64,000 nt of DNA, taken from contig NZ_QNFZ01000048.1 in the NCBI RefSeq assembly GCF_003313395.1, forward strand, positions 18,027-82,026, read 5' to 3'. How positions within the stretch are numbered: position 1 is the stretch's first letter; each line of letters begins with the position of its first letter. The notes under the pieces are model-generated. The model was given only the letters and a program-made list of their open reading frames with translations, made no database searches and was not told where the DNA came from. Origin of the DNA: Nonomuraea lactucae. GTDB taxonomy: Bacteria > Actinomycetota > Actinomycetes > Streptosporangiales > Streptosporangiaceae. Shown here in pieces: positions 6,676 through 22,408 of this stretch. The position numbers and the translations under genes were made by a program.

Positions 6676-7371
6676 TCACATGCGTACCAGCTCCAGTAGC
6701 TGATAAGTCAACACCGCGGGCTGCATAGCCGGGAAGCCGCGTAGCGTTCGTGTCTCCAGCCCTGCCTGCCGCGCCAGGGACTTCAGCAGTTCGTGGTTGC
6801 CGAGGCTGCTGAATCCCAAGAAGATCCGCCCGTCCGGTCGGACGTAGTGCGCCGCCTGGTCCAGGAAGCTTCGATGAGTGGTGTAGCCAGGATCGAATAT
6901 CGCGCGTTCCAGCACGTTGTGCACCACATGGTCAGGTGGAAGCTCGATGAAGCTGGAGTTCCAGAAGATGGCGTCGAAACGCGCTCCCTCCTCAAGTTCC
7001 GCGAACAGGTCGCTGCGCAGCACACGCACCCTCTCTCCGACGCCGTGCCTGCGGACGTTGAGCCGGGTGTTCTCGACGGCCTCCTCGCTGATGTCGAGGG
7101 CGGTGACCTCCGCGCAGCCCTTCAGCGCGGCGGTTACGGCGGTCACGCCGGCACCGCAGCCGATTTCCAGGAATGACCCCTGATCCGGATAGGGAAGCCA
7201 GGTGGTGAACAGCTGGGTCGACAGGTCGTGGACGGGAGCGAAAACTCCAGGGAGCAGATCCCATTCTCTGCCCAGGAGGGAGAAGACGGGAGGGCGCTGG
7301 GCTACGGCGGCGTTCATCCGGAGGAGTGCGCTTCCGAGACGGAGGCCGGGCTGATCCTCGCTGGTTGTCAT
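6676..7371 (-). CDS. Class I SAM-dependent methyltransferase
   Basis: A 231-aa protein with the Rossmann-type SAM-binding motif I (FLEIGCGAGVTAVTAAL, about residue 70), an acidic residue at the end of strand beta-2 (VTALDIS), and a later FWNSSFIELPP segment resembling the catalytic loop of N5-glutamine/L11-type methyltransferases, although a canonical NPPY is not present. The ATG overlaps the stop of the PabAB gene by four bases (ATGA), so it is the last gene of the long operon. By context it probably methylates the pathway product or an intermediate. N-, O- or C-methylation cannot be decided from sequence. Confidence 0.82.
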   Translation of the reverse strand: MTTSEDQPGLRLGSALLRMNAAVAQRPPVFSLLGREWDLLPGVFAPVHDLSTQLFTTWLPYPDQGSFLEIGCGAGVTAVTAALKGCAEVTALDISEEAVENTRLNVRRHGVGERVRVLRSDLFAELEEGARFDAIFWNSSFIELPPDHVVHNVLERAIFDPGYTTHRSFLDQAAHYVRPDGRIFLGFSSLGNHELLKSLARQAGLETRTLRGFPAMQPAVLTYQLLELVRM

Positions 7372-9500
7372 CCGGTGGCCAGACGTCCGGTTGCCGTCGC
7401 ATCGCCTCTGGGAAACTCCTGCCCGAGCAGCCGCAGGAGTGGTGCGGCTTTCACCGCCGTCTCCTCGAACTCGGCCTCGGGATCCGACAGAGCGATGATC
7501 GCACCGCCGACTCCGAACTCGATGCCCTCCGAGGACATCACCGCGGTTCGGATCGCGATACTGAAGTCCGCGGCTCCCGACAGGGAGAAATAGCCGATCG
7601 CGCCCGAATAGACACCGCGCGGCCCTTGTTCCAGCTCGTCGATGATCTGCATCGTGCGGATCTTCGGGGCCCCTGTCATGGAGCCGCCGGGGAACGACGC
7701 TCTCAGGCAGCCGACGGCCGAGGCCCCGGGCTTGAGCCGGGCGCGTACCGTGCTCACCAGTTGGTGGACCGTGGCGAAGGTCTCGACGTCGAAGAGCGGG
7801 TCGACGTGCACCGAGCCGGCCGCGGCGTTCCTGCTCAGGTCATTGCGGACGAGGTCCACGATCATCAGGTTCTCCGCGCGGTCCTTGGGATGAGTCGCCA
7901 GATCGTTCCGCAGCCGTTCGTCCTCGGCCGGGTCCGCCGAGCGTGGACGTGTGCCTTTGATGGGCTTCGACTCGACGACGCCGTCGGCGTCGATCCGCAG
8001 AAATCGCTCCGGAGAGGTGCTGAGAACGGAGAGCGGCCCCAGGCGCAGGAGCGCCGCGAACGGCACGGGGTTCTGCTGCCGCAGCAACCGGTAGGCGTTC
8101 CAGGGGATGAAGGTGCCCGGGACGGTCAGCATGTTCGTCAGACAGATCTCGTAGGACTCGCCGGCAGCCGTCTCATCCTGGCAACGGGCGATCAGCCCCA
8201 GATAGCGGTCTCTGGGATGGCGCAGGCGGATGCGGCCCGCGCGGCCGTGGGAGTCGATGGCCGGCGGGCCAGGGACGGGCGCGTGCTCGCCGGCCGTTCG
8301 TTCCAGCCGGGCCTGCACGTCGTCGAGCCATCGCGTCGCGGCGGCATCGTCGTGGGGTTCGGCGAGGGCGAGCAGGTAGATGTCCCGGGCGACGTGGTCG
8401 AAGACGATCATCCTGTCCGCGAAGACCATGACCGCATCCGGGTACGGTGAGCGATGGCAGCGGTCTCCCCCGCATTCGGCTTTGAGCTCGTAGCCGAGGT
8501 AGCCGACCCAGCCGAGCGTGAAGTCGAACGGCAGGCCCGGCACGTGAGTGCGGAGGGAAGCCAGATCATTCTCGAGCCAGTCGAAGAACGGTCCCTGATG
8601 GACTGCCGTTCCGGCGGCAGACTCGATCATGAGACGGCCGTGCCAGACATCGGCGCTCACCACACGGGCCAGCGGCCCGCCGGCGCAGCCCATGAAGGAG
8701 AACCGTCCATCCCGGTCTCCGGATCTGCTGCTGTCCAGCCAGAAGGCGTAGGGAGCATCGGAGTACAGCGCGTCGTACACCGCTTCGGGGGTGATGTCGG
8801 CGATGACGGCACGGACGATGACGTGTCGGCCGGCCGACACGTGCGGGACAAGCGGGGCATGGCCAGGTGATACGAACGTGGTCGCCGCCCTGGGCGTGGT
8901 CGCCGATCCGCCTCGTTCGTCCTGCCACCGGCGCGTGAGAGCCGCGAAGTTACGGAAGAGCCTCATGCCGTGCTCGGTGCAGATGGATTCGGGGTGGAAC
9001 TGCACCCCCCACATCGGGCGCTCCCGGTGCCGAAGGCCCATGATGACGCCGTCCGAAGTCCAGGCGGTGGCGACGAGATCGGGCGGCGGTTCGACGGCGG
9101 CGAGGGAGTGATACCGCACCGCCATGAACGGCGAAGGCAGTCCGGCGAAGATGTCCTCCCCGGTGTGCTCCACCGGCCAGCAGGTGCCGTGTTCGGCGCG
9201 GGGAGCGAGTCCGACCTTGCCGCCAAAGACGTAACAGATCCCCTGGTGCCCCAGGCAGATGCCGAGCAAGGGTATTCCCGCGGTCGCGATGATCTGCGCG
9301 GAGATCCCGAAGTCACCCTCCCTGTCGGGACGGCCTGGACCGGGGGATATCACCACGTTGTCGAAGTCCCGGAGAGACCGCGGGTCCCATCCGGGCTCGT
9401 CATTGCGGATGACGGTCGGCTCGCTCCCGTTCGCCTCCGCGAGGTAGTGGGCCACATTGTGGGTGAAGGAGTCGTAGTTGTCGATGATCAGAGTTTTCAC
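7368..9500 (-). CDS. pabAB: Aminodeoxychorismate synthase, PabA-PabB fusion
   Basis: A 710-aa fusion making 4-amino-4-deoxychorismate from chorismate and glutamine, the precursor of p-aminobenzoate. The N-terminal glutamine amidotransferase starts KTLIIDNYDSFTHN and has the triad Cys82 (GICLGHQG), His169 and Glu171 (GVQFHPES). The C-terminal chorismate-utilising domain carries PIKGTRPR, whose lysine (about residue 515) marks aminodeoxychorismate synthase rather than anthranilate synthase (PIAGT). It also has IVDLVRNDLSR and the FPGGSMTGAPK active-site segment. I start at GTG 9500, preceded by AAGGAAG; an ATG at 9545 overlapping the previous stop would add 15 residues not typical of PabA. No separate lyase (PabC) is seen in the cluster. 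Fused PabAB enzymes are common in antibiotic clusters (candicidin, chloramphenicol). Confidence 0.93.
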   Translation of the reverse strand: MKTLIIDNYDSFTHNVAHYLAEANGSEPTVIRNDEPGWDPRSLRDFDNVVISPGPGRPDREGDFGISAQIIATAGIPLLGICLGHQGICYVFGGKVGLAPRAEHGTCWPVEHTGEDIFAGLPSPFMAVRYHSLAAVEPPPDLVATAWTSDGVIMGLRHRERPMWGVQFHPESICTEHGMRLFRNFAALTRRWQDERGGSATTPRAATTFVSPGHAPLVPHVSAGRHVIVRAVIADITPEAVYDALYSDAPYAFWLDSSRSGDRDGRFSFMGCAGGPLARVVSADVWHGRLMIESAAGTAVHQGPFFDWLENDLASLRTHVPGLPFDFTLGWVGYLGYELKAECGGDRCHRSPYPDAVMVFADRMIVFDHVARDIYLLALAEPHDDAAATRWLDDVQARLERTAGEHAPVPGPPAIDSHGRAGRIRLRHPRDRYLGLIARCQDETAAGESYEICLTNMLTVPGTFIPWNAYRLLRQQNPVPFAALLRLGPLSVLSTSPERFLRIDADGVVESKPIKGTRPRSADPAEDERLRNDLATHPKDRAENLMIVDLVRNDLSRNAAAGSVHVDPLFDVETFATVHQLVSTVRARLKPGASAVGCLRASFPGGSMTGAPKIRTMQIIDELEQGPRGVYSGAIGYFSLSGAADFSIAIRTAVMSSEGIEFGVGGAIIALSDPEAEFEETAVKAAPLLRLLGQEFPRGDATATGRLATG

Positions 9501-9541
9501 GGCTTCCTTACCAGTCCAGAGGGCCGCACCGGGCAGGGCGC

Positions 9542-10933
9542 TCATCCGTTCGCGGTCCGGAAGGCCATCCGCAGGAGTTCGGGCCTGCGGATGATCTTTC
9601 CGTCGGGATTTCTCGGGACGGCGGCTGCCAGGTGGAAGCGCCGTGGGATCTTGAAGTCGCTCAGCCGGTCGCGGCACCAGCGGGCGAGGAGATCCGCTGT
9701 GAGCGTTTCGTCACCGCCCACATAGGCCTCGATGGTCGCGTCACACACCACGACCGCTTCCCGGACGGACGGATGCCCGCGAAGCACGGCCTCGACCTCT
9801 CCGAGGTCGACCTTCAACCCTCCGACCACGACCACGGAGTCGGTGCGACCGAGGATGTGCAGATGGCCTGTCCTCGCCTCGCCCACGCACCGGTCGAAGG
9901 TACGCAGCCACCCGTCGTCGTACCGTCCGTGCTGCTCGGTGTACAGGTAAGGGGAACGTTCCAGAGCGACATGGAGCTCACCCGCGAGTTCCCTCACTCG
10001 CATGTCACGGGTGGGAGTCCCCACGCAGGGCGGCGCGCAGCCTCCGGCGAGGTCCGCCGCGACGAGGCCGGTCTCCGTGGTGCCGTACACCGGCCGGATG
10101 GTGGTCCCGAAGGCGTCCGCGAACCGGTCGTACACCTCTTGGGGGAGCATCTCCCCCGCCGACACGGCCAACCGCAGCGCGGGCGGTTTCCGGTGCCGGC
10201 GACGAGAAAGGAGGTCGAAGTGTACGGGGACCCCGAAAATCGCGTGCGCTCCGGTCTCAGCGGCAGACTGTAAGACGTCGGCGGGGTTGATCCGCGCTGG
10301 GAACACCAGCTCGACTCCCGCGTTGAGGGCGTGCAGAAGGCCGCCCACCAGCCCCATGGTGTGGGTCAGCGAGTTGAGGAGCACGAGCCGCTCACCCCGC
10401 CCGGGCATACCCTCCAGTGCGGCGTACCGGTCGAGTTCGGCGAGCAACGAGCCGGAGGACCGGCCGACGGCTTTCGGCGCACCCGTCGACCCGGAGCTGA
10501 ACTGCACCAGGCAGATGTCACTCTCGGCGGAGCGGCCGGTCACCCGGCGCTCCACACGGACGTGGTGCTCGTCCGCCAGAATCGCCGTCGCCTTGCCCGG
10601 CGTCGCGGCCGGAGAAAGCACGTACTGGGGCTCACACAGGGACAGGACGCGCTCGAACTCACCGGCGGATGACCGGTGGTCGACCAGGATCACCTGCGCG
10701 CCGAGCGACCAGGCCGCGAAGAGCGTCTCCACCTGCGTCACCCCCGGCGGCACGCACAACGCGACGGTGGACCCACGCCCGGCACCGCGCGCCCTCAAAG
10801 CCGTCGCCCGTTCGGTGATGCGCTCCCTCAGCTGCCCCAAAGTCACTTCATGCGGAACCCTCGCCCAGACCGCGGACGCCGCCCCGCGTCCAAGGATGTC
10901 CGCACCCCACCACGTACGGGTTTCAGCTGCCAT
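9542..10933 (-). CDS. AMP-dependent acyl/aryl ligase
   Basis: A 463-aa adenylate-forming enzyme of the ANL superfamily. The phosphate-binding loop reads FSSGSTGAPKAVGRS, the A5 motif YGTTETGLV, and the C-terminus has the usual GRTDSVVVVGGLKVDL hinge and a catalytic Lys-containing RNPDGKIIRR tail. It would activate a carboxylate as acyl-AMP and pass it to CoA or a carrier-protein phosphopantetheine. With a free-standing ACP and a PABA synthase in the same operon, an aromatic acid such as p-aminobenzoate is the obvious candidate, but specificity is inferred. The ATG at 10933 has AAGGAAGGTGG upstream and lies inside the 3' end of the MFS gene (11-bp overlap). Confidence 0.86.
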   Translation of the reverse strand: MAAETRTWWGADILGRGAASAVWARVPHEVTLGQLRERITERATALRARGAGRGSTVALCVPPGVTQVETLFAAWSLGAQVILVDHRSSAGEFERVLSLCEPQYVLSPAATPGKATAILADEHHVRVERRVTGRSAESDICLVQFSSGSTGAPKAVGRSSGSLLAELDRYAALEGMPGRGERLVLLNSLTHTMGLVGGLLHALNAGVELVFPARINPADVLQSAAETGAHAIFGVPVHFDLLSRRRHRKPPALRLAVSAGEMLPQEVYDRFADAFGTTIRPVYGTTETGLVAADLAGGCAPPCVGTPTRDMRVRELAGELHVALERSPYLYTEQHGRYDDGWLRTFDRCVGEARTGHLHILGRTDSVVVVGGLKVDLGEVEAVLRGHPSVREAVVVCDATIEAYVGGDETLTADLLARWCRDRLSDFKIPRRFHLAAAVPRNPDGKIIRRPELLRMAFRTANG

Positions 10934-12161
10934 CGGTGACCACCTTCCTTGTTGATCCTTCGCGGTGATGCTCGCCGGCCCGCGAGCCCAGCGCCGCGGG
11001 GCCGAAACCGATGAGTGCGGCCAGCAAGGCGAGCACGGACGCCACGGCGGGTGCCGCATAGCCGGTCCGGGCGCCGGCCACATCCACGATCCAGCCGCCG
11101 ATGGCAGCGCCGGCCGAGATGCCGATGAGCATCCCGGTGTTGGTGAGCGTGATGCCCTCGTTGATCCGCGCCGGCGGCACCAGCTCGTGGACGAGCGTCA
11201 TGCTGGTGATCATGGTCGGCGCGGTCGCCACACCGGCGACGAAGAGCAGCACGGCAAGCGTCCAGATGTCCCCCGCGAACAGTACGGGCTGCATGAGCAC
11301 GGCCATGGCGGTGACGCACGCCAGGAAGCGCGCCGAAGTCGTGTGCCGCGCTCTGAGGGTGCCGAATGCCAGCCCCGCGATCGCCGAACCCGCGGCGAGG
11401 AGGCCCAGGATCACGCCCGCGGCCGAGGCGTGGCCCAGCGATTCGGCATAGGCCACGGTGACGACCTCCACACTGCCGAAGATCACACCGGTGAACAGGA
11501 ACGTCGCGATGATCTCCTTGATCCCGCCGACGCGCAGAGGTGATCCGGTGCCGGCCGTGACGGGATGCACGGCGGGTTCGGTCCGGCGCTGGGCGGCGAA
11601 AAGCAGCGTTCCAGCCAGGAGCAGCGCGGTCGCGGTGGTCAGTCCCGCCTCGGGCATGACCATGGCGCACAGCAGGGTCGCCAGCACCGGACCGAGCATG
11701 TAGCACAGTTCGTCCAGGGTCTGCTCGAAGGAGTTGGCACTGTGCAGCAGATCCGGCTCGTTCCGGTACAGCTCGGCCCAGCGCGCCCTGGCCATCGCGC
11801 CAACGCTGGGGACGCCCGAGGAGGCCATGTAGGTGACGAACAAGGTCCAGTCCGGAGCCCCACAGCGGACGCAGAGAACCATCAGCGTCGACGCGAACGC
11901 GGAGATCAGGATGGTCGGTACGGCCACCCTGGCCTGGCCGTGGCGGTCCGCGAGCCGTCCGATCCACGGTGTGAGGACGGCCACCGCCGCGAAACCGGCC
12001 GCGGACACGGCTCCGGCGAGCGCGTAGGAGTCGCGCAGGGTCGCCACCATGACGACGACGCTCACACCGTACATCGATGTCGGCAGCCGTCCCATGAATC
12101 CGGTCACGGTGAAGGCGACGGTGCCGGGCGCCGAGAACATGCGCCGGTAGGACGTGAGCAT
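10923..12161 (-). CDS. MFS transporter
   Basis: A 412-aa polytopic membrane protein with about 12 hydrophobic segments and the MFS loop signature GRLADRHGQARVAV after TM2. Its size and composition fit the drug:H+ antiporter-like MFS proteins, so it is the likely exporter of the operon's product and possibly a resistance determinant. The ATG at 12161 is preceded by AAGGAAG with good spacing. It overlaps the ligase gene by 11 bp and follows the sugar-kinase gene after a 43-bp gap, all on one strand. Confidence 0.86.
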   Translation of the reverse strand: MLTSYRRMFSAPGTVAFTVTGFMGRLPTSMYGVSVVVMVATLRDSYALAGAVSAAGFAAVAVLTPWIGRLADRHGQARVAVPTILISAFASTLMVLCVRCGAPDWTLFVTYMASSGVPSVGAMARARWAELYRNEPDLLHSANSFEQTLDELCYMLGPVLATLLCAMVMPEAGLTTATALLLAGTLLFAAQRRTEPAVHPVTAGTGSPLRVGGIKEIIATFLFTGVIFGSVEVVTVAYAESLGHASAAGVILGLLAAGSAIAGLAFGTLRARHTTSARFLACVTAMAVLMQPVLFAGDIWTLAVLLFVAGVATAPTMITSMTLVHELVPPARINEGITLTNTGMLIGISAGAAIGGWIVDVAGARTGYAAPAVASVLALLAALIGFGPAALGSRAGEHHREGSTRKVVTDGS

Positions 12162-12204
12162 GGCGAGGTCTTCCTTGGGCGAGGAGAAGGGAATACGTGG
12201 TGCG

Positions 12205-13185
12205 TCACGGACAGCGCATGACGTCGGCTCCTCTGGCCGACATGCGGAAGACGCGTTCGGTGAAGTCGTGGGCCGTCACAGCGGCGCGTACGTCGTCCAA
12301 GGCGTGCGCCGGAGCGTGCAGGAGCAGGAACCCTCCACCACCCGCGCCGAGGAGTTTGCCGCCGGTCGCTCCGGCGGCGAGCGCGTCACGATAGGCCCGG
12401 TCGACGGAGGGCAGGGACACCCCGGTGCCCAAGCCGCACTTCAACTCCCAGTGGCGGCCCAGCAGGTTTCCGAGCGAGACGGTGTCACCCTCGGTGAGCG
12501 CCTTTCGCGCCACCGTCGTGAGCTCCTTGATCTCGTGCAGTCGCCACTGCGTGTCCCGGTCCCCATGGACCACACGCGCGTTCTGTGCGGCGAGCATCTC
12601 TCCCGCGTCACGCACGGTGCCGGTGAAGAACAGCAGGAGCTCGTCATCGAGTCTCCTGATCGTCTCGGCGTCGACTTCGACGTCCTCCACCTCCACCCCG
12701 CCCGACCGGTCGAAGTAGAGCTGTCGCATGCCTCCGTACGCGGACAGGTAGGGGTCCTGCCGGCCGACGGGCCTGCCCAGGCTGCGGGTCTCGATGTCGC
12801 CCGCCGCTCCGGCCAGTTGCTCCGGCGACAGTGGCTGCCGGGACATCCCCGCCAGGAGGGCGACACAGAACGCCGCGGAGCTGCCGAGGCCGCTCCCGCC
12901 TGGCACGTCACCAAAGGAGGCGAGTCGCAGCGGCGAACCGTCCCAGTGTCTGCGCAGCACTTCACGGGCGAAGGGATTGATCTGGGCATCCGGCGCCTGG
13001 CTGTGCGCACAGCTGTCCAGGCAGGCGCGGATGCCATGCCCAGCGCTGCCGGTGTGTCCGACGACAGTGACGCGCAGGTCGATGGCCGAACCCAGGACGC
13101 TCCCCCCGAAGCGACGGGCATAGCTGGGCAGGTCCGTTCCGCCCCCGGCCAGAGAGATCCGCAGCGGGGCGCTGCTCATCCACAC
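12205..13185 (-). CDS. GHMP kinase, heptose-7-phosphate kinase (HddA) like
   Basis: A 326-aa GHMP-family kinase. The start reads SSAPLRISLAGGGTDLP, characteristic of the HddA branch (D-glycero-alpha-D-manno-heptose 7-phosphate kinase), and the ATP loop is VPGGSGLGSSAAF. The C-terminal motif GATGGKLLGAGGGGF is also canonical. Predicted reaction: heptose 7-phosphate to heptose 1,7-bisphosphate. It sits next to GmhB-like and GmhA-like genes, completing the set from sedoheptulose 7-phosphate. Either GTG 13185 or ATG 13179 may be the start; the strong AAGGAAGGAGGT site lies 4 bases before the first and 10 before the second. Confidence 0.87.
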   Translation of the reverse strand: MWMSSAPLRISLAGGGTDLPSYARRFGGSVLGSAIDLRVTVVGHTGSAGHGIRACLDSCAHSQAPDAQINPFAREVLRRHWDGSPLRLASFGDVPGGSGLGSSAAFCVALLAGMSRQPLSPEQLAGAAGDIETRSLGRPVGRQDPYLSAYGGMRQLYFDRSGGVEVEDVEVDAETIRRLDDELLLFFTGTVRDAGEMLAAQNARVVHGDRDTQWRLHEIKELTTVARKALTEGDTVSLGNLLGRHWELKCGLGTGVSLPSVDRAYRDALAAGATGGKLLGAGGGGFLLLHAPAHALDDVRAAVTAHDFTERVFRMSARGADVMRCP

Positions 13186-13206
13186 GTGGACCTCCTTCCT
13201 TGGTGT

Positions 13207-14871
13207 CTACAGGGCCGCGCGCAGCAGCGCCGCCGTCCGTTCGGGGTCGGTCTCACTGACGAAGGCGCCGGCGCCCAACTCCCCCGCGGCCGGCCGTTTG
13301 ACGGATGCTTCCGAGTACCTGTCGGTGAAGATGCGGGCGTGAAGGTGGCTGTACTCCCGGCCTCGCCGGGCAGGTGCCTGCATCCACAGGCTCATGTACG
13401 GGAGCGGGGTGGCCGCCACGCGGTCCAGGCAGCCGATGACGGAGCGGTAGACATGGGCCAGCTCAGTGGTCTCGTCCGGTGTCAGCGCGGGCAGGTCAGG
13501 CAGGTGACGCCGGGGATACAGATAGATCTCGTACGGCCAGCGGGCCGCGTACGGCACGAACGCCGTCCAGTGCTCGCGCTGCACGACGAGGCGTTCTCGT
13601 GCGGCCGTCTCCCGTTCGATCAGGCGACAGGCGATGCAGCCCTCCCCCCGCTCATGGGCCCGTTCAGCGCATGCCTGTACGCGGGCGAACCGGGCGGGCA
13701 CGAACGGATAGGCGTAGATCTGCCCGTGCGGGTGAGCCAGGCTGGCGCCGATCTGTGCACCTCGGTTCTCGAAACACAGGACCTGCGCCACCTCCCGGCG
13801 CGCTCCGAGCGCGAGGGTGCGGTCGGCCCAGGCGGTGATCACCGTACGTACACGCTCGACGGGCAGGCGGCTGAGGGGGACGTCGTGGTCACTGCCGAAC
13901 GACACGACCTCGCATGCCCCGGAGGCGGGCACATCGGCGAGCACACCGCCGTGCTCAGGACGATGGGGTACGGCGTCGCTGCCGGTCAGCGCCGGATAGC
14001 GATTGTCGATGACGACGACGTCGTAGCTCTCGGCGGGAATCTCCGTGGCCAGATCGCCCCGGCTGGGACACAACGGGCACACCTTCTCGCCCCCGCGGGT
14101 GCGCGCCCTGCGGGAAGGGGCGGAGATCACCCACTCTTCCTCCAACGGATCCCAGCGAAGGGTGCCGGGTGGCTGAAGCGGCGGCAGAGTCCGCCGGTCT
14201 CTGACGACGCGAGGCCGGACCTGTCCATCGTCGTAGAAGTGGACGCGGCGCCCGTCGGCGAGCCGCCCTGAGGTGACGGTCACCGCCGGAACGCCCCTGG
14301 AACAGCCCTCCTGTGCCACCACGCGATCCCGGATCGCTCGCAGCGCCTCCGCGGTGCTGGAGGCACGAATGTCGGCTCCGTCTGATTCCGTGTCACACGC
14401 CCCGCCGTAACAGACCCGAGCGGTACGGCATCCCGCCCGCCGCCCTGCCTCCACATCGCTGGCGAAGTCACCGACCATCCAGGAGGCGGACAGGTCGAGA
14501 CCGAGTTCGTGAGCGGCCCTCAGCAGCAGGCCGGGCGCGGGCTTGCGACAGTCGCAGGCGACGGCCAGATGCGGGACGACACCTTCGGCGTGATGCGGGC
14601 AGTGCAGAATGGCGTCCAGCGTCACCCCCTCGGCGGCGAGCCGGCACCGCAGATGGGAGTGCATGGCTTCCAGGTCGTCGCCGCCGAACAGCCCTCGGGC
14701 CAGGCCGGACTGGTTGGTAACCACCACGAGGGCCAGCCCTCGCTCCCGGAGAGCACGCAGATGAGGTGCCACCCCGGGTGACAGCACCAGGTGCTCGGGC
14801 CGGCTGGGGTAGTGCCTCGGCTCGGTCAGAGTCCCGTCACGATCGAGGAAGACGGCGGGCCGTCGCGTCAC
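13207..14871 (-). CDS. GmhB-like HAD phosphatase fused to GalT-like nucleotidylyltransferase
   Basis: A 554-aa bifunctional protein. Residues about 1-190 are a HAD phosphatase of the GmhB type: FLDRDGTLTEP supplies Asp10 and Asp12, VTNQSG follows, and a CPHH...CDC cluster matches the structural zinc site of D,D-heptose 1,7-bisphosphate phosphatase. The C-terminal part (about 220-554) is a galactose-1-phosphate uridylyltransferase (HIT fold) with CPLCPS and the active-site HPHGQ. Together they would dephosphorylate heptose 1,7-bisphosphate at C7 and then transfer NMP to the 1-phosphate, replacing the usual HddC/HldE nucleotidyltransferase. The nucleotide is not predictable. The GTG at 14871 overlaps the GmhA-like stop (GTGA). 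Confidence 0.87.
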   Translation of the reverse strand: MTRRPAVFLDRDGTLTEPRHYPSRPEHLVLSPGVAPHLRALRERGLALVVVTNQSGLARGLFGGDDLEAMHSHLRCRLAAEGVTLDAILHCPHHAEGVVPHLAVACDCRKPAPGLLLRAAHELGLDLSASWMVGDFASDVEAGRRAGCRTARVCYGGACDTESDGADIRASSTAEALRAIRDRVVAQEGCSRGVPAVTVTSGRLADGRRVHFYDDGQVRPRVVRDRRTLPPLQPPGTLRWDPLEEEWVISAPSRRARTRGGEKVCPLCPSRGDLATEIPAESYDVVVIDNRYPALTGSDAVPHRPEHGGVLADVPASGACEVVSFGSDHDVPLSRLPVERVRTVITAWADRTLALGARREVAQVLCFENRGAQIGASLAHPHGQIYAYPFVPARFARVQACAERAHERGEGCIACRLIERETAARERLVVQREHWTAFVPYAARWPYEIYLYPRRHLPDLPALTPDETTELAHVYRSVIGCLDRVAATPLPYMSLWMQAPARRGREYSHLHARIFTDRYSEASVKRPAAGELGAGAFVSETDPERTAALLRAAL

Positions 14872-15527: not shown

Positions 15528-16648
15528 CGAGTTCGGCGGAGCGTGCCGAGGGCGTACATCCGGTTGTCCGCCTCAGAGGTGACATCGCGGAAATCGGGTT
15601 GGGACGCCACCCAGGACAGGTACTCGTCGACGACGTCGGGGAGTTCGACGACCGGACGCCAGCCGAGCGCCTGCAGCGCCTCGGTGCTCGACAACACATG
15701 GCGGGTGTCCCCGACCCGGTAGGACCCGACGATCTCGGGTTCGCAATTGGCGCCGGCCGCCCGAATCACCAGTGCGGCATAGTCGCGGATACTCACCCGG
15801 CGTGCGCCGCCCACGTTGAACGCGCGTCCGACCGCTCGATCGTCACCGAGGACCAGCACGTTGGCACGGGTCACATCGTGGACGGACACGTAGTCGCGCA
15901 GTTGGCGCCCGTCCTCGTAACAAAGGGGAGCGCGACCGTTGATCACACGCTGGCTGAAGATCCGGAGGACACCCGAGTAGGCGTTGCGGAAGGACTGCCG
16001 GGCGCCCTGGACGATGGAGTATCGCAGCGCGACCGTCGGGATGCCGTAGCGGTCACCGAGCATCAGGGCGAGTGACTCTTCCCCATGTTTCGACAGGGCG
16101 TAGGAGTTGTGCGGGCGAGTGGCGCTCTCATCGGTCCAGACAGGTTCGAGAGCGGTCTCGCACGACGGACAAGGCAGGTCCCAGAGCCCGCGATCAAGGC
16201 GCTCACGGGCGCGCGGACCAGGCCGCAGCTCACGGAGAGCGGGACAGGCGGGACAGCTGTACGCGCCCTCCCCGTACACGGCCTGGCTGGAAGCGACGAT
16301 CACACGGGAACAGGGCTGGCCACGGGCGACGAGCACCTCGTACATCAGCGCGGTCGACACCGTGTTGGTAGTGAAGAAAGTGGAGAAGTCCGGAAGATAG
16401 TCCTGGTACGCGGCCAGGTGGTACACGGCGTCGACACCATCCAGCGCCTTCTCCCAAGCCTCTCGGTCGCGGACATCGCCTTCGACGCACTCGGCGCCAC
16501 GCTCCCGCAGGTGTTCGGGGAACCGCCGCTCGGCGTGCACCGGCGGCGTCAAGGCGTCGAGGATCCGGACCTCGTGGCCGAGGTCGAGGAGGGCGTCGGC
16601 CGTGTGCGAACCGATGAAGCCCGCGCCGCCCGTGACAAGGATTCTCAT
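15524..16648 (-). CDS. NAD-dependent NDP-sugar epimerase/dehydratase with zinc-ribbon insert
   Basis: A 374-aa extended SDR. The NAD-binding motif is TGGAGFIGSH, and the catalytic YxxxK is YALSK (about residue 185). Between strands there is an insert with two CPxC pairs (CPAC ... CPSC, about residues 130-165) that looks like a zinc ribbon. I recall a similar insert in dTDP-L-rhamnose 4-epimerase-type enzymes. It probably epimerises (C4 or another carbon) the NDP-heptose built by its neighbours. ATG 16648 overlaps the stop of the glycosyltransferase (ATGA) and its own stop overlaps the isomerase start. Exact substrate is not known. Confidence 0.84.
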   Translation of the reverse strand: MRILVTGGAGFIGSHTADALLDLGHEVRILDALTPPVHAERRFPEHLRERGAECVEGDVRDREAWEKALDGVDAVYHLAAYQDYLPDFSTFFTTNTVSTALMYEVLVARGQPCSRVIVASSQAVYGEGAYSCPACPALRELRPGPRARERLDRGLWDLPCPSCETALEPVWTDESATRPHNSYALSKHGEESLALMLGDRYGIPTVALRYSIVQGARQSFRNAYSGVLRIFSQRVINGRAPLCYEDGRQLRDYVSVHDVTRANVLVLGDDRAVGRAFNVGGARRVSIRDYAALVIRAAGANCEPEIVGSYRVGDTRHVLSSTEALQALGWRPVVELPDVVDEYLSWVASQPDFRDVTSEADNRMYALGTLRRTR

Positions 16649-18162
16649 ACGTGCTCCTGCTGACTCGATATGGCTGCGGCACCCGCGAGACCGGCCAGGC
16701 GCCGATAGAGCCGGGCGAACTCGTCCGCGGTGCGGGCCCAGGACCAGTCCCGGGCCATGGCGCGGCGACGAAGCACACTCGCCTCGGCGGGCCGGTCCCG
16801 CAGCACGGCGAGGGCGGAACGGACGGTGTCGCGTACGGCCTCCGGGGTGTGGGCGGGGATGATCCAGCCGATGCCGTCATCGGAGTCCACGGGAACGACG
16901 CTGTCCCGCAGTCCGCCTACGGGACTGACGACGGGAAGCGTGCCGTAGGCCATGGCGATCAGCTGGTTGAGGCCGCAGGGCTCCACGCGTGAGGGCATGA
17001 CAGTGAGGTCGGAGCCCGCGTAGAGCAGCCAGGCCGTCTCCTGATCGAATCGCGGAACACAGGCCAGCCGGTGCGGGTGTTCGCTCGCCAGAGCGGCCAG
17101 CGCGCCGCGGAAGGGTTCGACGCTGGGCCCCATGAGCACCATCTGTACGGCTCCTTCGGCTCCCTCGGCTCCCTCGGCGAGGAGCGGCGTCATGGCCGCG
17201 AGCAGCAGATCGGTGCCCTTCTCCGCGACGAAACGGGAGCAGATGCCGACGACCGGGACGCCCGGGTCCTCGACCAGGCCGAGGCGACGCTGAAGGGCCG
17301 CTTTGTTGAGGCGCTTGCCCTCGTCCACGGTGCCGGCGTCGAAGGGCACGGACGGACGACCCGTGGCCGCCGGGTTCCAGATCGTCCCGTCCACACCGGA
17401 CACGACGCCGGTGTGGTCCATCGCCGCCCACACATCGGCCACCGCGCTGTGCGCGTGGACCGTGGGAAGTTCCCGCGCGTACGTCGGACTGCAGGTCACC
17501 CCGGCGTCCGCCGAGAGCAATCCCAGGACGAGCATGCTCTCGCGGCCCCCCGCACGGCGTCGCAGCCGCGCGACGGCCTCCCCGGGTAGTCCGAGTGTCC
17601 TGGTCAGGTCCCCCAGGGCCGTCTGCCCGGCGAGGTGCCCCTCATAGGCGGCGCTGTGAATGTTCATCAACAGCGCCGGAGAGCCGCCGGCGCGCCGGGC
17701 CCGCAGGTGGGCCAGGGCTGCCCCGGACTGCCAGTCGTTGGCGTGCACGAGGTCGTAGGTGACGCCGGTGCGTTCAACCCATTCGGCGACGCTGGCCCCG
17801 AAGAAGGCGGCACGCTCGACGGCGTCGGCGAACTCCGTGTACCTGGCGTCACGGTAGATCCCATCCCGGTCATACCAGGCGTCCGCCTTGATCAGGACGA
17901 CGTCGCACGGCCCGCCGTGGTCGAGCAGTCGCAGGACGGTCGCCTCGGACGTGATGCTCCCTATGGTTCGGGCGGGTAGCCGGCCGATCTCGGCTGTGCG
18001 CAGCCCTGACCGCTCCACCAGCCACGGGTAGGCGGGCATGATGAGGTCGTGTACCAGACCGTGTCGGATCTGCAACGACGCGGGCAGTCCCCTGCTGGTG
18101 AGGCCGAGGCCCCCCTCCGTGAAGTGCGGGGCGTACTCCTGGGTGATGTACAGACATCTCAC
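16645..18162 (-). CDS. GT5-like glycosyltransferase (glycogen/starch synthase fold)
   Basis: A 505-aa GT-B enzyme. The N-terminus RCLYITQEYAPHFTEGGLG matches the starch-synthase catalytic domain, whose (K)xGGLG loop binds the nucleotide sugar. The C-terminal domain has PSRVEPCGLNQLIAMAYG, the donor-binding E-containing motif of GT4/GT5 enzymes. GTG 18162 forms a GTGA overlap with the previous gene. Inside this sugar-nucleotide operon it is better explained as the transferase attaching the unusual sugar than as a glycogen synthase; acceptor and donor are inferred only. Confidence 0.82.
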   Translation of the reverse strand: MRCLYITQEYAPHFTEGGLGLTSRGLPASLQIRHGLVHDLIMPAYPWLVERSGLRTAEIGRLPARTIGSITSEATVLRLLDHGGPCDVVLIKADAWYDRDGIYRDARYTEFADAVERAAFFGASVAEWVERTGVTYDLVHANDWQSGAALAHLRARRAGGSPALLMNIHSAAYEGHLAGQTALGDLTRTLGLPGEAVARLRRRAGGRESMLVLGLLSADAGVTCSPTYARELPTVHAHSAVADVWAAMDHTGVVSGVDGTIWNPAATGRPSVPFDAGTVDEGKRLNKAALQRRLGLVEDPGVPVVGICSRFVAEKGTDLLLAAMTPLLAEGAEGAEGAVQMVLMGPSVEPFRGALAALASEHPHRLACVPRFDQETAWLLYAGSDLTVMPSRVEPCGLNQLIAMAYGTLPVVSPVGGLRDSVVPVDSDDGIGWIIPAHTPEAVRDTVRSALAVLRDRPAEASVLRRRAMARDWSWARTADEFARLYRRLAGLAGAAAISSQQEHV

Positions 18163-18770
18163 GGGGCCGTGACCCCCTGCTGTATGGAGGTTGTGCGGAC
18201 CCACAGTCCGAAGATGTGCATGTCGGGGTTGACGGGGAGGAGCAGAGCACCACAGGGCAGGGCATCGTCGAGCCGGCTCTCGTGGCGATAGAGCCGGGGA
18301 CGCGGTCCCGGGATGTCCCGGCCGTGTTCGCGCAGCAGCGAGCCGGTGAAGTGACACCGATCGCCGTACACCGGCCGCGCGGAGAGGAAGTCGGTGAGAC
18401 CGACCGGCACGCGCTGCCGGCCGCCGTCGCCGTCGTCCAGGTGAAGCGAGTCAAGAAATGACCCGTTCGTACAGGAGCCCAGTACGATGACACCCGTCAC
18501 GTGCAGATGCGCGGGGAGCTCGATGCGCTGTCCGTCGCAGGCGACATTGTCGGGAGCTCCGCTCCCCCATGCCTCCGGTGCCGTCCGCAGGAGACCGGCC
18601 ACGGTGCCGAGCTCTTCGGCCGGATAGGACCGACCGAAGCCGTCGAGCCCCGGACCGATGTCGACGCCCGGCAGGGCGGTGCCCGCGTTGTCACGGTAGG
18701 CGGACAGATCGACCGGCAGGGTTCGTGGCGGCATGTCCTTCCGCGCTTCCGCCGCGCCGAGAGCTACCAT
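18159..18770 (-). CDS. Unknown protein, possible beta-sandwich sugar-binding module
   Basis: A 203-aa protein without catalytic motifs I can name. It begins near PVDLSAYRDNAG, followed by GLDGFGRSYPAEEL and NVACDGQRIELP. Similar strings occur in beta-sandwich domains attached to carbohydrate-active enzymes, but this resemblance is from memory and weak. ATG 18770 has AGGAGA upstream and overlaps the BtrH-like gene's TAG by 7 bp; the stop overlaps the glycosyltransferase GTG by 4 bp, so it is an integral operon member. It could bind or position the glycosyl acceptor, or be a noncanonical enzyme. Confidence 0.7.
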   Translation of the reverse strand: MVALGAAEARKDMPPRTLPVDLSAYRDNAGTALPGVDIGPGLDGFGRSYPAEELGTVAGLLRTAPEAWGSGAPDNVACDGQRIELPAHLHVTGVIVLGSCTNGSFLDSLHLDDGDGGRQRVPVGLTDFLSARPVYGDRCHFTGSLLREHGRDIPGPRPRLYRHESRLDDALPCGALLLPVNPDMHIFGLWVRTTSIQQGVTAP

Positions 18771-19828
18771 TCGATCTCCTCTCCCAGTGCTCGCAGCACG
18801 TCCGCGGCGGCGGTGAGAGCCGCTCGGACCTCTCCCAGACGGTTGAGGACCTCGTCGCGGTACTTCCCACGTTCGTGATCGGGAAGGATCACGCTGCGCA
18901 CGAGGAGAGCGCGGGTGACGAGCCAGTCCTGCGAGGCTCGTTCAACCGCGCCGGCCACCGCGTCGAGTGACGGGCACCCGTCCGCCTCCGGATCGGGCGC
19001 CAGCGTCAGGTGACGGCCGAACCAGCGCAGCGTGTGGTGGTAGGTCCACATGCCGCGCAGCAATCCGGCGACGCGATCGCGCTCCGGGTCCTCGCCGGAC
19101 GCTCGTTCCGGTCGGCGCATGGCCGGGAGGACTCCCAGGACATCGTCCATGGATCCGGCCAGCCAGTCGGTCAGTTCGACCCCGCTGAGCCGGGAACCTT
19201 CCCGTCCTGTGAGCATCTCGGTGTAGTCGAGGAACCGGCCAGCCCACGACCGCCTCACGGGGCCGGCTCCCCTGCCCGCGTAACCGTCACGCAGCATCAG
19301 CCAGCGCAGGTCGACTCGGTCGTCACTCAACGCGGGCACCAGTGCGTCGACGCGCACCCGGTCGTCGAAGTGAACGATGTCGACAGGGTCGGTAAGCCGG
19401 ACGGTGCCTTCCGCCGGATCGTACTCGCGGAGTACTACGGCGTGCGGCGCGTGCACCCGGCCGTGGTCGATCCAGTAGTGCGCCAGGTGGAACGTGTCGA
19501 CGATGACCATGGCCGGGTGGCCGTCGCGCAGCGCCTGGAAGAGCGCGTCGAGGCCCTCCGAGCCGGCGAGCGGGTTTCGGACCACGTCATGGCCCCACGC
19601 GGTGAGGGTCTCGCACAGGGTCGGCAGAACATCGTGCATCGCCACCCAGCCGTTCTGCCGTTCGGCGTCCGTCGCCGCCGTGGCGCCGAGGACGAGGGCG
19701 GGATCGGTGCCGGGGGAACGTTGCCGCAACAGCGTGGCCAGCGTCGCGTGATAGCAGCTCGGATCGGTCGGATCGGTCGGATCGGTCGGATCGGTCGGAT
19801 CGGTGCGGGGGGACGTGACGGCGCTCAC
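18764..19828 (-). CDS. BtrH-like acyltransferase (C39-peptidase-like N-domain)
   Basis: A 354-aa protein resembling the BtrH N-terminal domain from butirosin biosynthesis, which moves an amino-acyl group from a carrier protein to an aminoglycoside through a cysteine thioester. The candidate catalytic Cys is in SCYHATLATLLRQ and the candidate His in APHAVVLREYD; GWVAMHDVLPTL and AMVIVDTFHLAHYW between them fit that family. The start GTG (19828) overlaps the FAD-enzyme stop (GTGA). Directly before the Cys is a (TDP)n linker encoded by a 9-bp tandem repeat. With an ACP and acyl ligase in the operon, it is the predicted amide- or ester-forming step. The C-terminal ~170 residues are not recognised. 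Confidence 0.75.
   Translation of the reverse strand: MSAVTSPRTDPTDPTDPTDPTDPSCYHATLATLLRQRSPGTDPALVLGATAATDAERQNGWVAMHDVLPTLCETLTAWGHDVVRNPLAGSEGLDALFQALRDGHPAMVIVDTFHLAHYWIDHGRVHAPHAVVLREYDPAEGTVRLTDPVDIVHFDDRVRVDALVPALSDDRVDLRWLMLRDGYAGRGAGPVRRSWAGRFLDYTEMLTGREGSRLSGVELTDWLAGSMDDVLGVLPAMRRPERASGEDPERDRVAGLLRGMWTYHHTLRWFGRHLTLAPDPEADGCPSLDAVAGAVERASQDWLVTRALLVRSVILPDHERGKYRDEVLNRLGEVRAALTAAADVLRALGEEIEW
19761..19805. repeat. 9-bp minisatellite inside the BtrH-like gene
   Basis: Five tandem copies of GGATCGGTC (the last ends in G), in frame, encode repeated Thr-Asp-Pro units immediately upstream of the predicted catalytic cysteine. Copy-number change would alter linker length by three residues without a frameshift. 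Confidence 0.92.
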
Positions 19829-21321
19829 GCGATCGCGTCCTGGCCGGATCCGGCGGCATCGTACTGGTCGTAGTAGTGGCGCAACCTCGTCGAGATGCGT
19901 GGGTTGTGCCGTGCCGTGGCCAGGATCTCCGGTGGTGGGGTGAACACGGGGTGGAGGGAGTCCGCGAAGAAAGTGAGTTCGCGGTACATGTTGTGCTCGA
20001 TCTGGGTCGGCCAGTCGACGGGCAGATGCCAGTTCGACTCGTATCCGACCGCCAGGGTGTGCGTGACGGTGGTGCGGACGATCTCGTGGCGCTCCATGGA
20101 CTGGATCGGCGCGCGCACCGGTGAGAAGAGGCCGAGGTCGAGCTGAGCCGCGTCGCCGAGGATGCGGCGCGCCAGCTCAGGGGCGAGCAGCGGCGAGAGG
20201 GTGAGCCCGTCGCGATACGTCCCGGTCAGTATCCACAGGCCGTCGGGACCGGCCTGTCCGATGAGCGGATAACCGTCCAGAGACACCGGCCGGTTGCCGA
20301 CATGCGTGCGAGTGACGGGACTGTGCCACAGCCCACGATGCACTTGACGCACGGCGCAGTCCAACAGGAAGTGAACGTCCCTGACCACGGGGTGCGCGAC
20401 CGGGTCGGCCGAGATGATGTTGGTGGCGCCCACGTACACCTGTCCGGGGCCGCGCGGTACGACATGCAGACCGCAGGCGAACGCCCGGTTGGGTGTGCGG
20501 ATCACACTGCGCGGGACCCGGCCTCCCGCGGGCGTCGTGTCCAGGAGGACCGAGACGCCGTATCCGGAGACCAGGGGCGGCACGGTCCTGGCGAGATCGG
20601 GAATGCCGTCCAACAGGAGCTGGGTACGCGCTCCCGCGGCCACGATGACCGTACGACCGCTCAACCGGTCGCCGGAGGCGAGAACGACGCCGTCCATACG
20701 GTCGTGATCGACGATCAGCTCCACGGCCTCGTCGGTGACGAGCCGGCCGCCCCGCCCGATGAACGCCTGCCGCAGTCGGTCCAGGAGGAGAGCCGAGTTC
20801 ACGGCATGCTCGCCGGGTATGTGCAGCGCCTTCAGCGGCCTGGCCAAGGCATCGGGTTCGATCCAGTCGATCTGTGACGGGTCGACATCCTCGTACTTCT
20901 CGCCGTACTCGGCCAGCGCCTGCCGGATCGCCGCGTAGTTGTCGGAATCGACGCCAGGTGCGCCGATCGCGTTCAAGAGCACGAACGTGCCGTCGGCCGT
21001 GATCAGGCTTTCGGCCCCGGGCTCCCCCGCGTCGGCGTCGAGCTCGGCCAGCCAGGCGTCCCACCGGTTCCGCGCCTCGAACCCGAGATCCAGCTTGGCG
21101 CGTCCAGATCGTCCGTGCAGCAGCGTGGTCGTGACCTCACCGAAGCAACCGATCATCGCGCCCGCGGCTGCGGAGGCGGACCAGGGACGATGCTCCTGGC
21201 CCACCAGAGCGACAGCGACGCCGTGGCGTGCCAACGTGAGGGCCAGGGAAATCCCGAGTACGCCATTGCCGACGACGACGGCGTCAAACGATTCGGCAGT
21301 GCCCGAATTGGTGCTGGTCAT
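19825..21321 (-). CDS. FAD-dependent DAO-family oxidoreductase
   Basis: A 498-aa flavoprotein of the D-amino-acid/glycine oxidase superfamily. The dinucleotide-binding motif is VVVGNGVLGISLALTLARHG near the N-terminus, and a C-terminal GNRPVSLDGYPLIG segment resembles the second FAD contact of these enzymes. It likely oxidises a C-N bond of an amine or amino acid to an imine. The RidA-type protein two genes upstream would hydrolyse such an imine. ATG 21321 has GGTAGGAG upstream. The stop overlaps the BtrH-like start. The substrate is unknown; dehydrogenation of a sugar-linked amine is also possible. Confidence 0.84.
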   Translation of the reverse strand: MTSTNSGTAESFDAVVVGNGVLGISLALTLARHGVAVALVGQEHRPWSASAAAGAMIGCFGEVTTTLLHGRSGRAKLDLGFEARNRWDAWLAELDADAGEPGAESLITADGTFVLLNAIGAPGVDSDNYAAIRQALAEYGEKYEDVDPSQIDWIEPDALARPLKALHIPGEHAVNSALLLDRLRQAFIGRGGRLVTDEAVELIVDHDRMDGVVLASGDRLSGRTVIVAAGARTQLLLDGIPDLARTVPPLVSGYGVSVLLDTTPAGGRVPRSVIRTPNRAFACGLHVVPRGPGQVYVGATNIISADPVAHPVVRDVHFLLDCAVRQVHRGLWHSPVTRTHVGNRPVSLDGYPLIGQAGPDGLWILTGTYRDGLTLSPLLAPELARRILGDAAQLDLGLFSPVRAPIQSMERHEIVRTTVTHTLAVGYESNWHLPVDWPTQIEHNMYRELTFFADSLHPVFTPPPEILATARHNPRISTRLRHYYDQYDAAGSGQDAIA

Positions 21322-21442
21322 GAACTCCTACCTTGATGCGAGGCCCTGATGCGGACCGAGAAAGCCGACATGACCGGTTTCCGGGTGCCGGAGGGATACG
21401 AAAACCGCCTCGCGGCCGGGGGCGGAACGTCACGCCTTCGCC

Positions 21443-21694
21443 TCAGGAGCAAGCCACATCGTCAGGGAACTTCTCGGAGAGATAGCCGTACAGGGCACGG
21501 ACCGATGTGAATCTGCGCAGGTCTGAACGTTCGGGATCAATGCTGACGCCGTGCCGCTCTTCCAGCAGGTGCTGAATCCAGACGAGCGCGAGGGAGTCCA
21601 CGACGATGGGAGCATCGAAGGCCAACCCCTCGGGGTCACCAAGACTGAGGCATTCGGCCACGATCGCTCGCACTTCGTCAAGAGTGACTGACAC
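21443..21694 (-). CDS. Acyl carrier protein
   Basis: An 83-aa free-standing carrier protein. The phosphopantetheine attachment serine is in VVDSLALVWIQHLLEE, followed by the typical helix III with HGVSIDPE. The TTG at 21697 is a possible start, but the GTG at 21694 has better spacing from GAAAGGTAG. No ketosynthase or condensation domain exists in the window, so this is not a PKS or NRPS line. Instead it probably carries the acyl group activated by the AMP ligase for transfer by the BtrH-like protein, as in butirosin. It lies 22 bp downstream of RidA and about 120 bp upstream of the FAD enzyme. Confidence 0.87.
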   Translation of the reverse strand: MSVTLDEVRAIVAECLSLGDPEGLAFDAPIVVDSLALVWIQHLLEERHGVSIDPERSDLRRFTSVRALYGYLSEKFPDDVACS

Positions 21695-21716
21695 CAAGAG
21701 CTACCTTTCTGACGCG

Positions 21717-22115
21717 TCAAGGGATCGCGGCCATGGCACTGATCTCAACGAGCTGATCGGGGTATCCCAGGCAGGCAACCCCCAGCAGGGTCGAGGCGTG
21801 CGGCGGTGAGGCGAACCCGGAATCGCACGCGATGCCCCATGCCCGACCAAGGTCTTCGGAGGTGCTCGCGACGACGTAGACCGTGCTGGACAACACCTGG
21901 CTCAGGTCACTGCCGACCGCGCGCAGCGCCGTGCGCAGATTGGTCAGTGCCTGTCGCGTCTGAGCCACGAGATCGCCCGCACCGACAAGGCCGCCGCCAC
22001 CGTCCAAAGGAACGGCGCCGGCCATGAATGCCAGGTGATGGCTCGGCTCCACGACAACCGCGTGCGCGTAGCCCGGAGGCGGGAACAGACCTGCGACGGT
22101 CGGCCGGTGGATCAT
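21717..22115 (-). CDS. RidA/YjgF-family protein (imine deaminase-like)
   Basis: A 132-aa RidA-family protein, a trimeric beta-alpha fold that hydrolyses reactive enamines/imines in many pathways. Typical features include HLAFMAGAVPLDGGGGLVG, the helix QTRQALTNLRTALRAVGSDL, VYVVAS and the C-terminal LVEISAMAAIP. The catalytic Arg and Glu normally present near positions 105 and 120 are not both obvious: the region reads ASTLLGVACLGYPDQLVEI, lacking the usual R before the hydrophobic strand, so it may bind rather than deaminate. The ATG at 22115 has TAGGAG upstream; a GTG at 22118 is too close to it. It is the first gene of the operon. Confidence 0.83.
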   Translation of the reverse strand: MIHRPTVAGLFPPPGYAHAVVVEPSHHLAFMAGAVPLDGGGGLVGAGDLVAQTRQALTNLRTALRAVGSDLSQVLSSTVYVVASTSEDLGRAWGIACDSGFASPPHASTLLGVACLGYPDQLVEISAMAAIP

Positions 22116-22326: not shown

Positions 22327-22403
22327 TGGTGGTCAGGGGCAGGGTCGAACTGCCGACCTTCCGCTTTTCAGGCGGACGCTCGTACCAACTGAGCTACCTG
22401 ACC
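22327..22403 (-). tRNA. tRNA-Phe (GAA)
   Basis: The minus-strand cloverleaf has acceptor arms GGTCAGG/CCTGACC and anticodon stem TCCGC/GCGGA enclosing loop CTGAAAA, giving anticodon GAA. A 3' CCA is encoded (22327-22329). It is the third of three co-oriented tRNA genes. Confidence 0.95.
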
Positions 22404-22408
22404 CGGAG

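Follow-up and report, generated by a model that had tools for sequence, protein, structure and literature searches.

The closest described relatives of the system analysed here come from several antibiotic pathways. Flavoenzymes that install a glycine-derived amidine are represented by Orf1 of BD-12 and Fsm14 of dactimicin, whose genes have aminoglycoside or streptothricin neighbours. According to PMC10156733, Orf1 first oxidises glycine at the flavin adenine dinucleotide (FAD); the resulting glycine-imine then travels via a Cys281 nitrogen-oxygen-sulfur (NOS) adduct to an amine, which becomes N-formimidoylated or N-iminoacetylated. Transfer requires C281 and E426, and the oxidation of glycine requires R342; a table in the same source lists PDB 7XQA as Orf1 with glycine (PMC10156733). 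A second group comprises cysteine enzymes sharing one fold, such as AziU3 (with its partner AziU2) of azinomycin, CcbD of celesticetin and CtaG, and a third the nucleoside diphosphate (NDP)-heptose pathways of septacidin and hygromycin B. Here, we describe an operon from Nonomuraea lactucae, located at positions 6676-22115 on the minus strand of a 64,000-nucleotide stretch of contig NZ_QNFZ01000048.1 (the window), in which homologues of all three groups stand beside genes for the supply of p-aminobenzoate (PABA). Judging from its conservation in another genus, the block is a real pathway unit, and we consider it moderately probable that it is a horizontally mobile operon directing the synthesis of an exported small molecule combining a PABA-derived acyl unit with a C7 sugar and carrying a formimidoyl modification. 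Its 14 genes, all on the minus strand and listed in the direction of transcription, are as follows.

21717..22115, minus strand: RidA/YjgF-family protein, 132 residues, first gene (Pfam PF01042, E 6.7e-17)
21443..21697, minus strand: free acyl carrier protein (ACP), 84 residues, with a DSL phosphopantetheine site (PF00550, 20.8 bits, equal to the cut-off)
19825..21321, minus strand: homologue of FAD-dependent N-formimidoyl/iminoacetyl synthases, Orf1/Fsm14 type (PDB 7xqa, E 1.6e-116)
18764..19828, minus strand: candidate cysteine acyltransferase of the BtrH/AziU3/CcbD fold (putative triad C25, H129, D147)
18159..18770, minus strand: U203, AziU2 homologue, beta-sandwich candidate partner of the BtrH-like protein
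16645..18162, minus strand: glycosyltransferase of family 5 (GT5, GlgA-like), candidate heptosyltransferase (TIGR02095, 329.0 against a cut-off of 328.45)
15524..16648, minus strand: NAD-dependent sugar epimerase/dehydratase with a CxxC...CxxC insert (PF01370, E 2.6e-41; YxxxK)
14868..15497, minus strand: GmhA-like sedoheptulose-7-phosphate isomerase, GTG start at 15527 possible (TIGR00441, E 1.5e-34)
13207..14871, minus strand: GmhB-GalT fusion, heptose bisphosphate phosphatase plus nucleotidyltransferase (LDRDGT and HPHGQ motifs)
12205..13179, minus strand: HddA-like GHMP heptose-7-phosphate kinase (NF049969, E 3.3e-36)
10923..12161, minus strand: major facilitator superfamily (MFS) exporter (PF07690, E 6.7e-27)
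9542..10933, minus strand: stand-alone AMP-dependent acyl/aryl ligase (PF00501, E 4e-44)
7368..9500, minus strand: PabAB fusion, 4-amino-4-deoxychorismate (ADC) synthase (PDB 8hx6, E 4.8e-219; TIGR00553 above cut-off)
6676..7371, minus strand: S-adenosylmethionine-dependent methyltransferase of the PrmC/HemK-like class, last gene (PF05175, E 6.3e-15)

The first-pass annotation, made from the letters alone, had proposed a 14-gene minus-strand block lacking polyketide synthase and nonribosomal peptide synthetase (NRPS) genes, and this description stands: all 14 open reading frames (ORFs) are intact, with no internal stops, and Pfam detects no such domain in the 14 products (AMP-binding, which the ligase matches, is a domain that NRPSs also use). 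The family names given to 13 genes agree with Pfam and NCBIfam at family level; the 14th, U203, had been left unnamed. The statement that much of the block shows 4-base overlaps was somewhat generous, since five of the 13 junctions are of this type and seven overlap at all (-4 five times, -7 and -11) with the starts chosen here, or six and eight, respectively, with the alternative GmhA start at 15527.

The strongest argument for a single pathway comes from Salinispora. When GTDB contigs were scanned with an alignment of three BtrH sequences, three loci were returned (relatives are detected by short exact patterns, so that absence elsewhere is not implied); a BtrH query matched two Streptomyces plasmids and, among 394 genomes of the class, the N. 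lactucae genome alone at E <= 1e-8. In Salinispora oceanensis DSM 45547, gene order and strand are retained for 13 of the 14 genes, with 59-80% identity (ACP 69%, methyltransferase 64%, epimerase 80%), which excludes a chance assembly and delimits the unit as the genes from ACP to methyltransferase. No counterpart of RidA was detected in the 38 kb of Salinispora sequence read (best match E 0.24). The -7 junction between the BtrH-like gene and U203 and the -11 junction between the MFS and ligase genes are equal in both genomes, as are four -4 overlaps (FAD/BtrH, U203/GT5, GT5/epimerase and GmhA/GmhB-GalT), and the other junctions differ by start choice or a few bases. In Salinispora, a DDE_5 transposase gene lies about 0.5 kb upstream of ACP; a downstream piece also resembles a transposase by eye.

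It had been recognised from the start that the block might consist of several unrelated neighbouring transcripts, and the widest intergenic gap, 121 nt between ACP and the FAD gene, contains a GC-rich hairpin followed by TTTT, seen by eye and lying outside the count of the terminator scan. The sequence of this gap is unlike that of Salinispora and folds no better than shuffled sequence (z 0.18), and the block contains three terminator-like sites against 4.8 expected from shuffles; promoter-like sites numbered two against 1.0 expected, and the scan for transcription signals gave nothing usable. RidA and ACP may be co-transcribed with the remaining genes. The hairpin-like stretch and the RidA gene not found in Salinispora are set against 13 genes whose order and overlaps persist in another genus, and we regard unrelated transcripts as very improbable.

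The FAD enzyme had been annotated as an oxidase, a label that has to be revised: it is not a plain oxidase and is a homologue of the N-formimidoyl/iminoacetyl synthases. Its best solved relatives are entries titled N-formimidoyl fortimicin A synthase, the first glycine-oxidase entry following at E 2e-15, and it belongs with Orf1 and Fsm14 over most of its length, with the residues of both catalytic centres kept. Orf1 C281, T298, N299, F316, R342, R368 and E426 correspond to C283, T300, N301, F318, R344, R370 and E428 (the Orf1 numbering uses an offset of 21, which was taken manually from the HMMER alignment and agrees at nine named residues). Thus, the window protein has both the transfer site with its NOS chemistry (C283, E428) and the glycine site (R344, R370). 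As a control, ThiO from the N. lactucae genome was aligned: it shares R342 and R368 and has gaps at C281 and E426. The identification of the operon protein as a plain glycine oxidase of the ThiO type was rejected, as it scores 130.5 bits with TIGR02352 against a cut-off of 250.8 and has the transfer-site residues. At the acceptor site, the Glu312-Glu313 pair of Orf1 is replaced by Arg-Asp, so that an acceptor other than that of Orf1 is expected. From these residues, the enzyme should attach a glycine-derived amidine to an acceptor unlike that of Orf1, in a setting of PABA, ACP and heptose genes that also differs from those of Orf1 and Fsm14.

A source of PABA is encoded beside it. The PabAB protein aligns with PDB 8hx6 over residues 1-692 of 710 as a full-length fusion and has the PIKGT lysine, the cysteine of the glutamine amidotransferase domain and the His-Glu motifs of ADC synthases; PIKGT is present in all seven PabAB proteins read, including that of the window. 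Elsewhere in the genome (contig C1049), a PabB-like gene adjoins a gene for a class IV aminotransferase of the PabC family. The operon copy is thus probably an extra ADC synthase, and the lyase can come from outside the operon.

PabAB and FAD-enzyme genes also lie close together elsewhere. FAD homologues (E <= 1e-50, one locus read per genome, a weaker second place at 34% identity in genome G271 being left out of the counts) occur in eight of the 394 genomes, that of N. lactucae included. PabAB lies 1.4-6.2 kb away in five of the seven other loci (L102, L103, L104, L105 and L107; genes in L102-L108 were predicted with a simple script, and Pfam was applied to ten of the products), a proximity that we estimate to be far from chance, as a few kb represent well under 1% of these genomes. 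RidA homologues lie about 4.7 kb from the FAD homologues in L104 and L107 (tblastn). L103, L104 and L107 look like similar clusters, with GNAT-like genes recognised by eye beside PabAB and the Orf1-type flavoenzyme; L103 also encodes a class I/II aminotransferase-fold enzyme and a PD40-amidohydrolase, and L104 a chorismate mutase (Pfam). Arginine at position 312 was tried as a PABA signature and given up: it occurs in four of the five sampled PabAB neighbours, in Salinispora and in the window, with Gly and Ala at the two loci without PabAB, but L105, a PabAB neighbour, has Gly, and S. finlayi has Arg without PabAB on its plasmid. Thirteen plasmid records contain FAD matches, and three regions were read. 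On the S. finlayi plasmid, the FAD gene is flanked by a methyltransferase gene (46% identical to that of the window) and RidA; this region (L115 9466-26435), with its methyltransferase, Orf1-type flavoenzyme and RidA, lies near NRPS, GMC oxidoreductase and acyl-CoA dehydrogenase genes. On the Agrobacterium plasmid, about 3.4 kb separate the FAD homologue from a gene of the anthranilate synthase family, which has PISGT in place of PIKGT. The P. cerasi region has neither PabAB nor an anthranilate-synthase-family gene, and its FAD protein lacks the E426 equivalent.

The next two genes of the operon match a single solved complex. The BtrH-like protein shows the fold of BtrH, AziU3, CcbD and CtaG with a putative Cys-His-Asp triad (C25, H129, D147). 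Its BtrH_N score (PF14399) is 29.6 bits, 0.1 below the gathering threshold of 29.7, and no BtrH structure is among the 50 VIA-align matches listed, so that the fold likeness rests on AziU3, CtaG (solved with PHBA, which we take to be p-hydroxybenzoate) and CcbD (solved with a peptidyl carrier protein and with methylthiolincosamide). AziU3 is matched by fold, with a sequence E value of 0.0057 only. U203 (203 residues) has no match in Pfam or NCBIfam and matches AziU2 by both fold and sequence. Given the homology of U203 to AziU2 and the AziU3 fold of the BtrH-like protein, the two adjacent genes probably encode one heterodimer. A DUF1349 protein in L034 was wrongly taken for a U203 homologue (25% identity); the true copy adjoins BtrH. 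In its N-terminal part, the BtrH-like protein has a Thr-Asp-Pro repeat, encoded by a short 9-nt tandem repeat (19759-19804).

What this pair does may be judged from its relatives. CtaG of the closthioamide pathway has the same fold, is a cysteine enzyme and binds a ligand isosteric with PABA; it differs in that no AziU2-like partner appears in the listed entry titles and in product class. In celesticetin biosynthesis, CcbD condenses a carrier-bound acyl group with a sugar made by an isomerase/kinase/phosphatase/nucleotidyltransferase set; there, the sugar is C8 and the acyl group a proline derivative, whereas the operon combines C7 sugar genes with an aryl acid and adds a formimidoyl synthase and GT5. 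Butirosin BtrH, which works with an ACP and a ligase, follows the same logic of acyl transfer from ACP to sugar in the part of PMC10318531 concerned with it, but with an amino-acid side chain and an aminoglycoside acceptor, and the likeness comes here from the domain score at the cut-off, not from a BtrH structure (PMC10318531). Homology to AziU3 and AziU2, the aziridine synthase of azinomycin, could also mean that the pair is a ring-forming or eliminating enzyme and not an acyltransferase. We consider this unlikely: no sulfotransferase or amino-group carrier partners, hence none for a sulfate elimination, were recognised among the 14 products (the rest of the genome was not searched), and ACP, ligase, GT5 and heptose genes are found instead.

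The sugar genes form a complete NDP-heptose set, with isomerase, kinase, phosphatase and nucleotidyltransferase together, and the set is conserved in Salinispora, including the GmhB-GalT fusion; the HPHGQ motif of GalT is kept. GalT scores above TIGR00209 (130/102) and below NF008724 (183/448). The route from sedoheptulose-7-phosphate resembles those of septacidin and hygromycin B. The locus differs by its GalT-type nucleotidyltransferase fused to GmhB, and no adenine or aminocyclitol genes were recognised. In the GT5 protein, KxGGL, the sugar-nucleotide lysine motif of GlgA, is replaced by TEGGL and EPCGL is kept; xEGGL occurs in six of the seven GT5 copies read, and the motif pattern was not found in the seventh (L035a). 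The epimerase has a zinc-ribbon-like CxxC...CxxC insert in all three copies read (window, Salinispora and plasmid NBC_00715).

The two halves of the operon occur as separate modules in other replicons. Locus L102 (G355:C23:80200-100000) encodes PabAB, a ligase (51%) between PabAB and the FAD homologue (63%), an ACP (44%) and a class IV aminotransferase of the Pfam family of PabC, without BtrH, U203 or heptose genes in 19.8 kb (tblastn). This orphan cluster also contains genes for a luciferase-like monooxygenase, an allantoicase-like protein, a ketosynthase and a condensation-domain protein. Conversely, Streptomyces plasmid NBC_00868 carries BtrH, U203, GT5, GmhA, GmhB, GalT, HddA and MFS genes in a row and no PabAB in the plasmid record, and NBC_00715 has most of this module, HddA and this MFS gene not being found in the 36.9 kb read. 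The N. lactucae and Salinispora operons therefore look like a fusion of a PABA/FAD module with a heptose/BtrH module, and this is the main reason for taking the PABA unit as the acyl group and the heptoside as its acceptor. In L035 (NBC_00868) and L037 (S. hygroscopicus NBRC 3401), BtrH-U203-GT5-GmhA are linked to an AMP ligase and a methionyl-tRNA-synthetase-like protein, which carries a cupin domain in L037; the gene sets resemble systems predicted in the portion of PMC2922099 that concerns them (PMC2922099). In L048 and L047 (S. hygroscopicus NBRC 3401), PabAB (51-53% identical) lies about 17 kb from GT5, with ACP-like and ligase genes nearby.

The recurrence of PabAB also bears on a reading in which PABA is not the acid that the ligase and ACP work on, and PabAB sustains folate synthesis against an antifolate product as self-resistance. 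The operon PabAB does coexist with a PabB-like gene of the genome, and PABA/chorismate metabolism is an antibiotic target according to the relevant part of PMC6100094 (PMC6100094). Yet PabAB, ligase, FAD enzyme and ACP recur together in L102, and PabAB recurs with a chorismate mutase in L104, so we rate a self-resistance role as quite unlikely. PabAB and chorismate mutase are paired in aminophenylalanine pathways.

Taken together, the gene content is best read as follows, the reaction order, the sugar nucleotide and the methylation site being part of the proposal. PabAB would form 4-amino-4-deoxychorismate, a PabC-like lyase whose gene lies at another place in the genome would convert this into PABA, and the ligase would load PABA onto the free ACP. 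From glycine, the FAD enzyme would furnish an N-formimidoyl (or iminoacetyl) group to an amine; the simplest candidate is that of PABA, the sole amine that the operon itself evidently supplies. GmhA, HddA, GmhB and GalT would convert sedoheptulose-7-phosphate into an NDP-heptose, which the epimerase would reshape and from which GT5 would transfer the heptose to an acceptor. The BtrH-like/U203 pair would then move the (formimidoyl)aroyl group from ACP to the sugar, the methyltransferase would finish the molecule and the MFS protein export it. The aminobenzoyl/NDP-heptose product suggested by the first-pass annotation thus remains the best reading as regards the PABA acyl group and the activated heptose, the amidine step having been missed. 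Since the FAD enzyme is a formimidoyl synthase homologue, the expected mass signature of a +119 heptoside is widened to +119 with optional +27 (formimidoyl) and +14 (methyl).

Several points weigh against this pathway, in addition to the hairpin-like stretch between ACP and the FAD gene mentioned above. GmhA, HddA and GmhB miss their NCBIfam equivalog cut-offs (119/209, 125/600 and 145.6/178 bits), so that their names hold at family level and the exact sugar is not fixed, and the operon offers no evident acceptor substrate to GT5. PabAB was not found at two of the seven sampled FAD loci (L106 and L108), its match in L107 is split over two frames, and the five linked loci amount to about three independent cases because L103, L104 and L107 share similar gene content. 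The 180 kb S. finlayi plasmid has a FAD homologue and no PabAB (the chromosome was not searched); this homologue has the same Arg-Asp acceptor-site pair as the window, so that Arg-Asp cannot serve as a signature of PABA. We could assign no known product to the operon. Moreover, the known acceptors of Orf1 are aliphatic amines, which are better nucleophiles than aryl amines. The FAD enzyme might instead act as in fortimicin and BD-12 and formimidoylate an aliphatic amine on an amino-sugar or aminocyclitol supplied by the host, with PABA as a separate acyl decoration and an aminoglycoside-like heptosyl pseudo-oligosaccharide as product. The acceptors described for Orf1-type enzymes in the parts of PMC10156733 devoted to them are indeed aliphatic amines of aminoglycosides and streptothricins (PMC10156733), and the methylthiolincosamide entries show CcbD with an amino-sugar acceptor. 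Nevertheless, no aminotransferase or other amine-making gene besides PabAB was recognised among the 14 products (Pfam), and the five loci with PabAB near the FAD homologue have no BtrH or heptose genes (tblastn); an aliphatic acceptor therefore appears to us a minor possibility, though a serious one. The most specific form of the proposal, in which ACP-bound PABA is N-formimidoylated by a NOS-bridge flavoenzyme and an AziU3/AziU2-type heterodimer, acting as an ACP-dependent aroyltransferase, then passes the modified aroyl group on to a heptosyl sugar, would define a new product class, and we advance it tentatively, as doubtful in its entirety. The pathway as such is genuine and probably undescribed: among titles and the beginnings of abstracts in the open-access literature on this combination or on heptose natural products, we found no paper describing the gene set.

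The operon occupies a variable slot of the chromosome beside tRNA-Phe, bordered as follows.

22327..22652, minus strand: tRNA-Phe, tRNA-Asp and tRNA-Glu, a conserved chromosomal flank beyond which the variable slot starts

All 30 loci of the genus read, that of N. lactucae included, retain the tRNA-Glu/Asp/Phe cluster, a metallophosphoesterase gene and the MFS gene that follows; the metallophosphoesterase is present in all 55 genomes checked. In the 29 loci of other genomes, which reach about 1.2 kb past tRNA-Phe, no gene of the operon was detected (E <= 1e-20), nor was one in four relatives extended about 18 kb further (E <= 1e-15). Homology to these four stops at 22261-22329. In G014 it begins again about 2.3 kb beyond the left end of the window, giving a slot of about 24.6 kb here; that of G014 contains about 13.7 kb with no DNA similarity to the contig of the window. 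Besides the operon, the slot contains a plus-strand gene (63-4124) for a protein of 1353 residues with 12 WD40 stretches (Pfam) and, adjoining the operon, a minus-strand gene (4156-6579) for a protein of 807 residues that matches UvrA weakly and has two ABC-type ATP-binding stretches. GC content at third codon positions (GC3) is 0.69-0.88 in the 14 operon genes (mean 0.816), compared with 0.92-0.96 in six right-flank genes picked by us; two further ORFs there have 0.86 and 0.85, and the left neighbours 0.87 and 0.95. Because flanking ORFs also reach 0.85-0.87, GC3 lends modest support to a foreign origin of the operon. Apart from the gene itself, att-like repeats of tRNA-Phe were matches of 10-14 bases of the chance kind, so that no tRNA-integrase insertion is claimed.

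If the product does belong to an N-aryl formamidine class, PabAB and Orf1-type enzymes would form a recurring module in several other orphan clusters, and the operon points to further clusters assembled from the same modules. The copy in Salinispora oceanensis DSM 45547 offers a compact 13-gene pathway of a size that should allow cloning in one piece. Such a pathway would test NOS-bridge amidination of aryl amines, acyltransfer by AziU3/AziU2-like proteins and GalT-type NDP-heptose synthesis.

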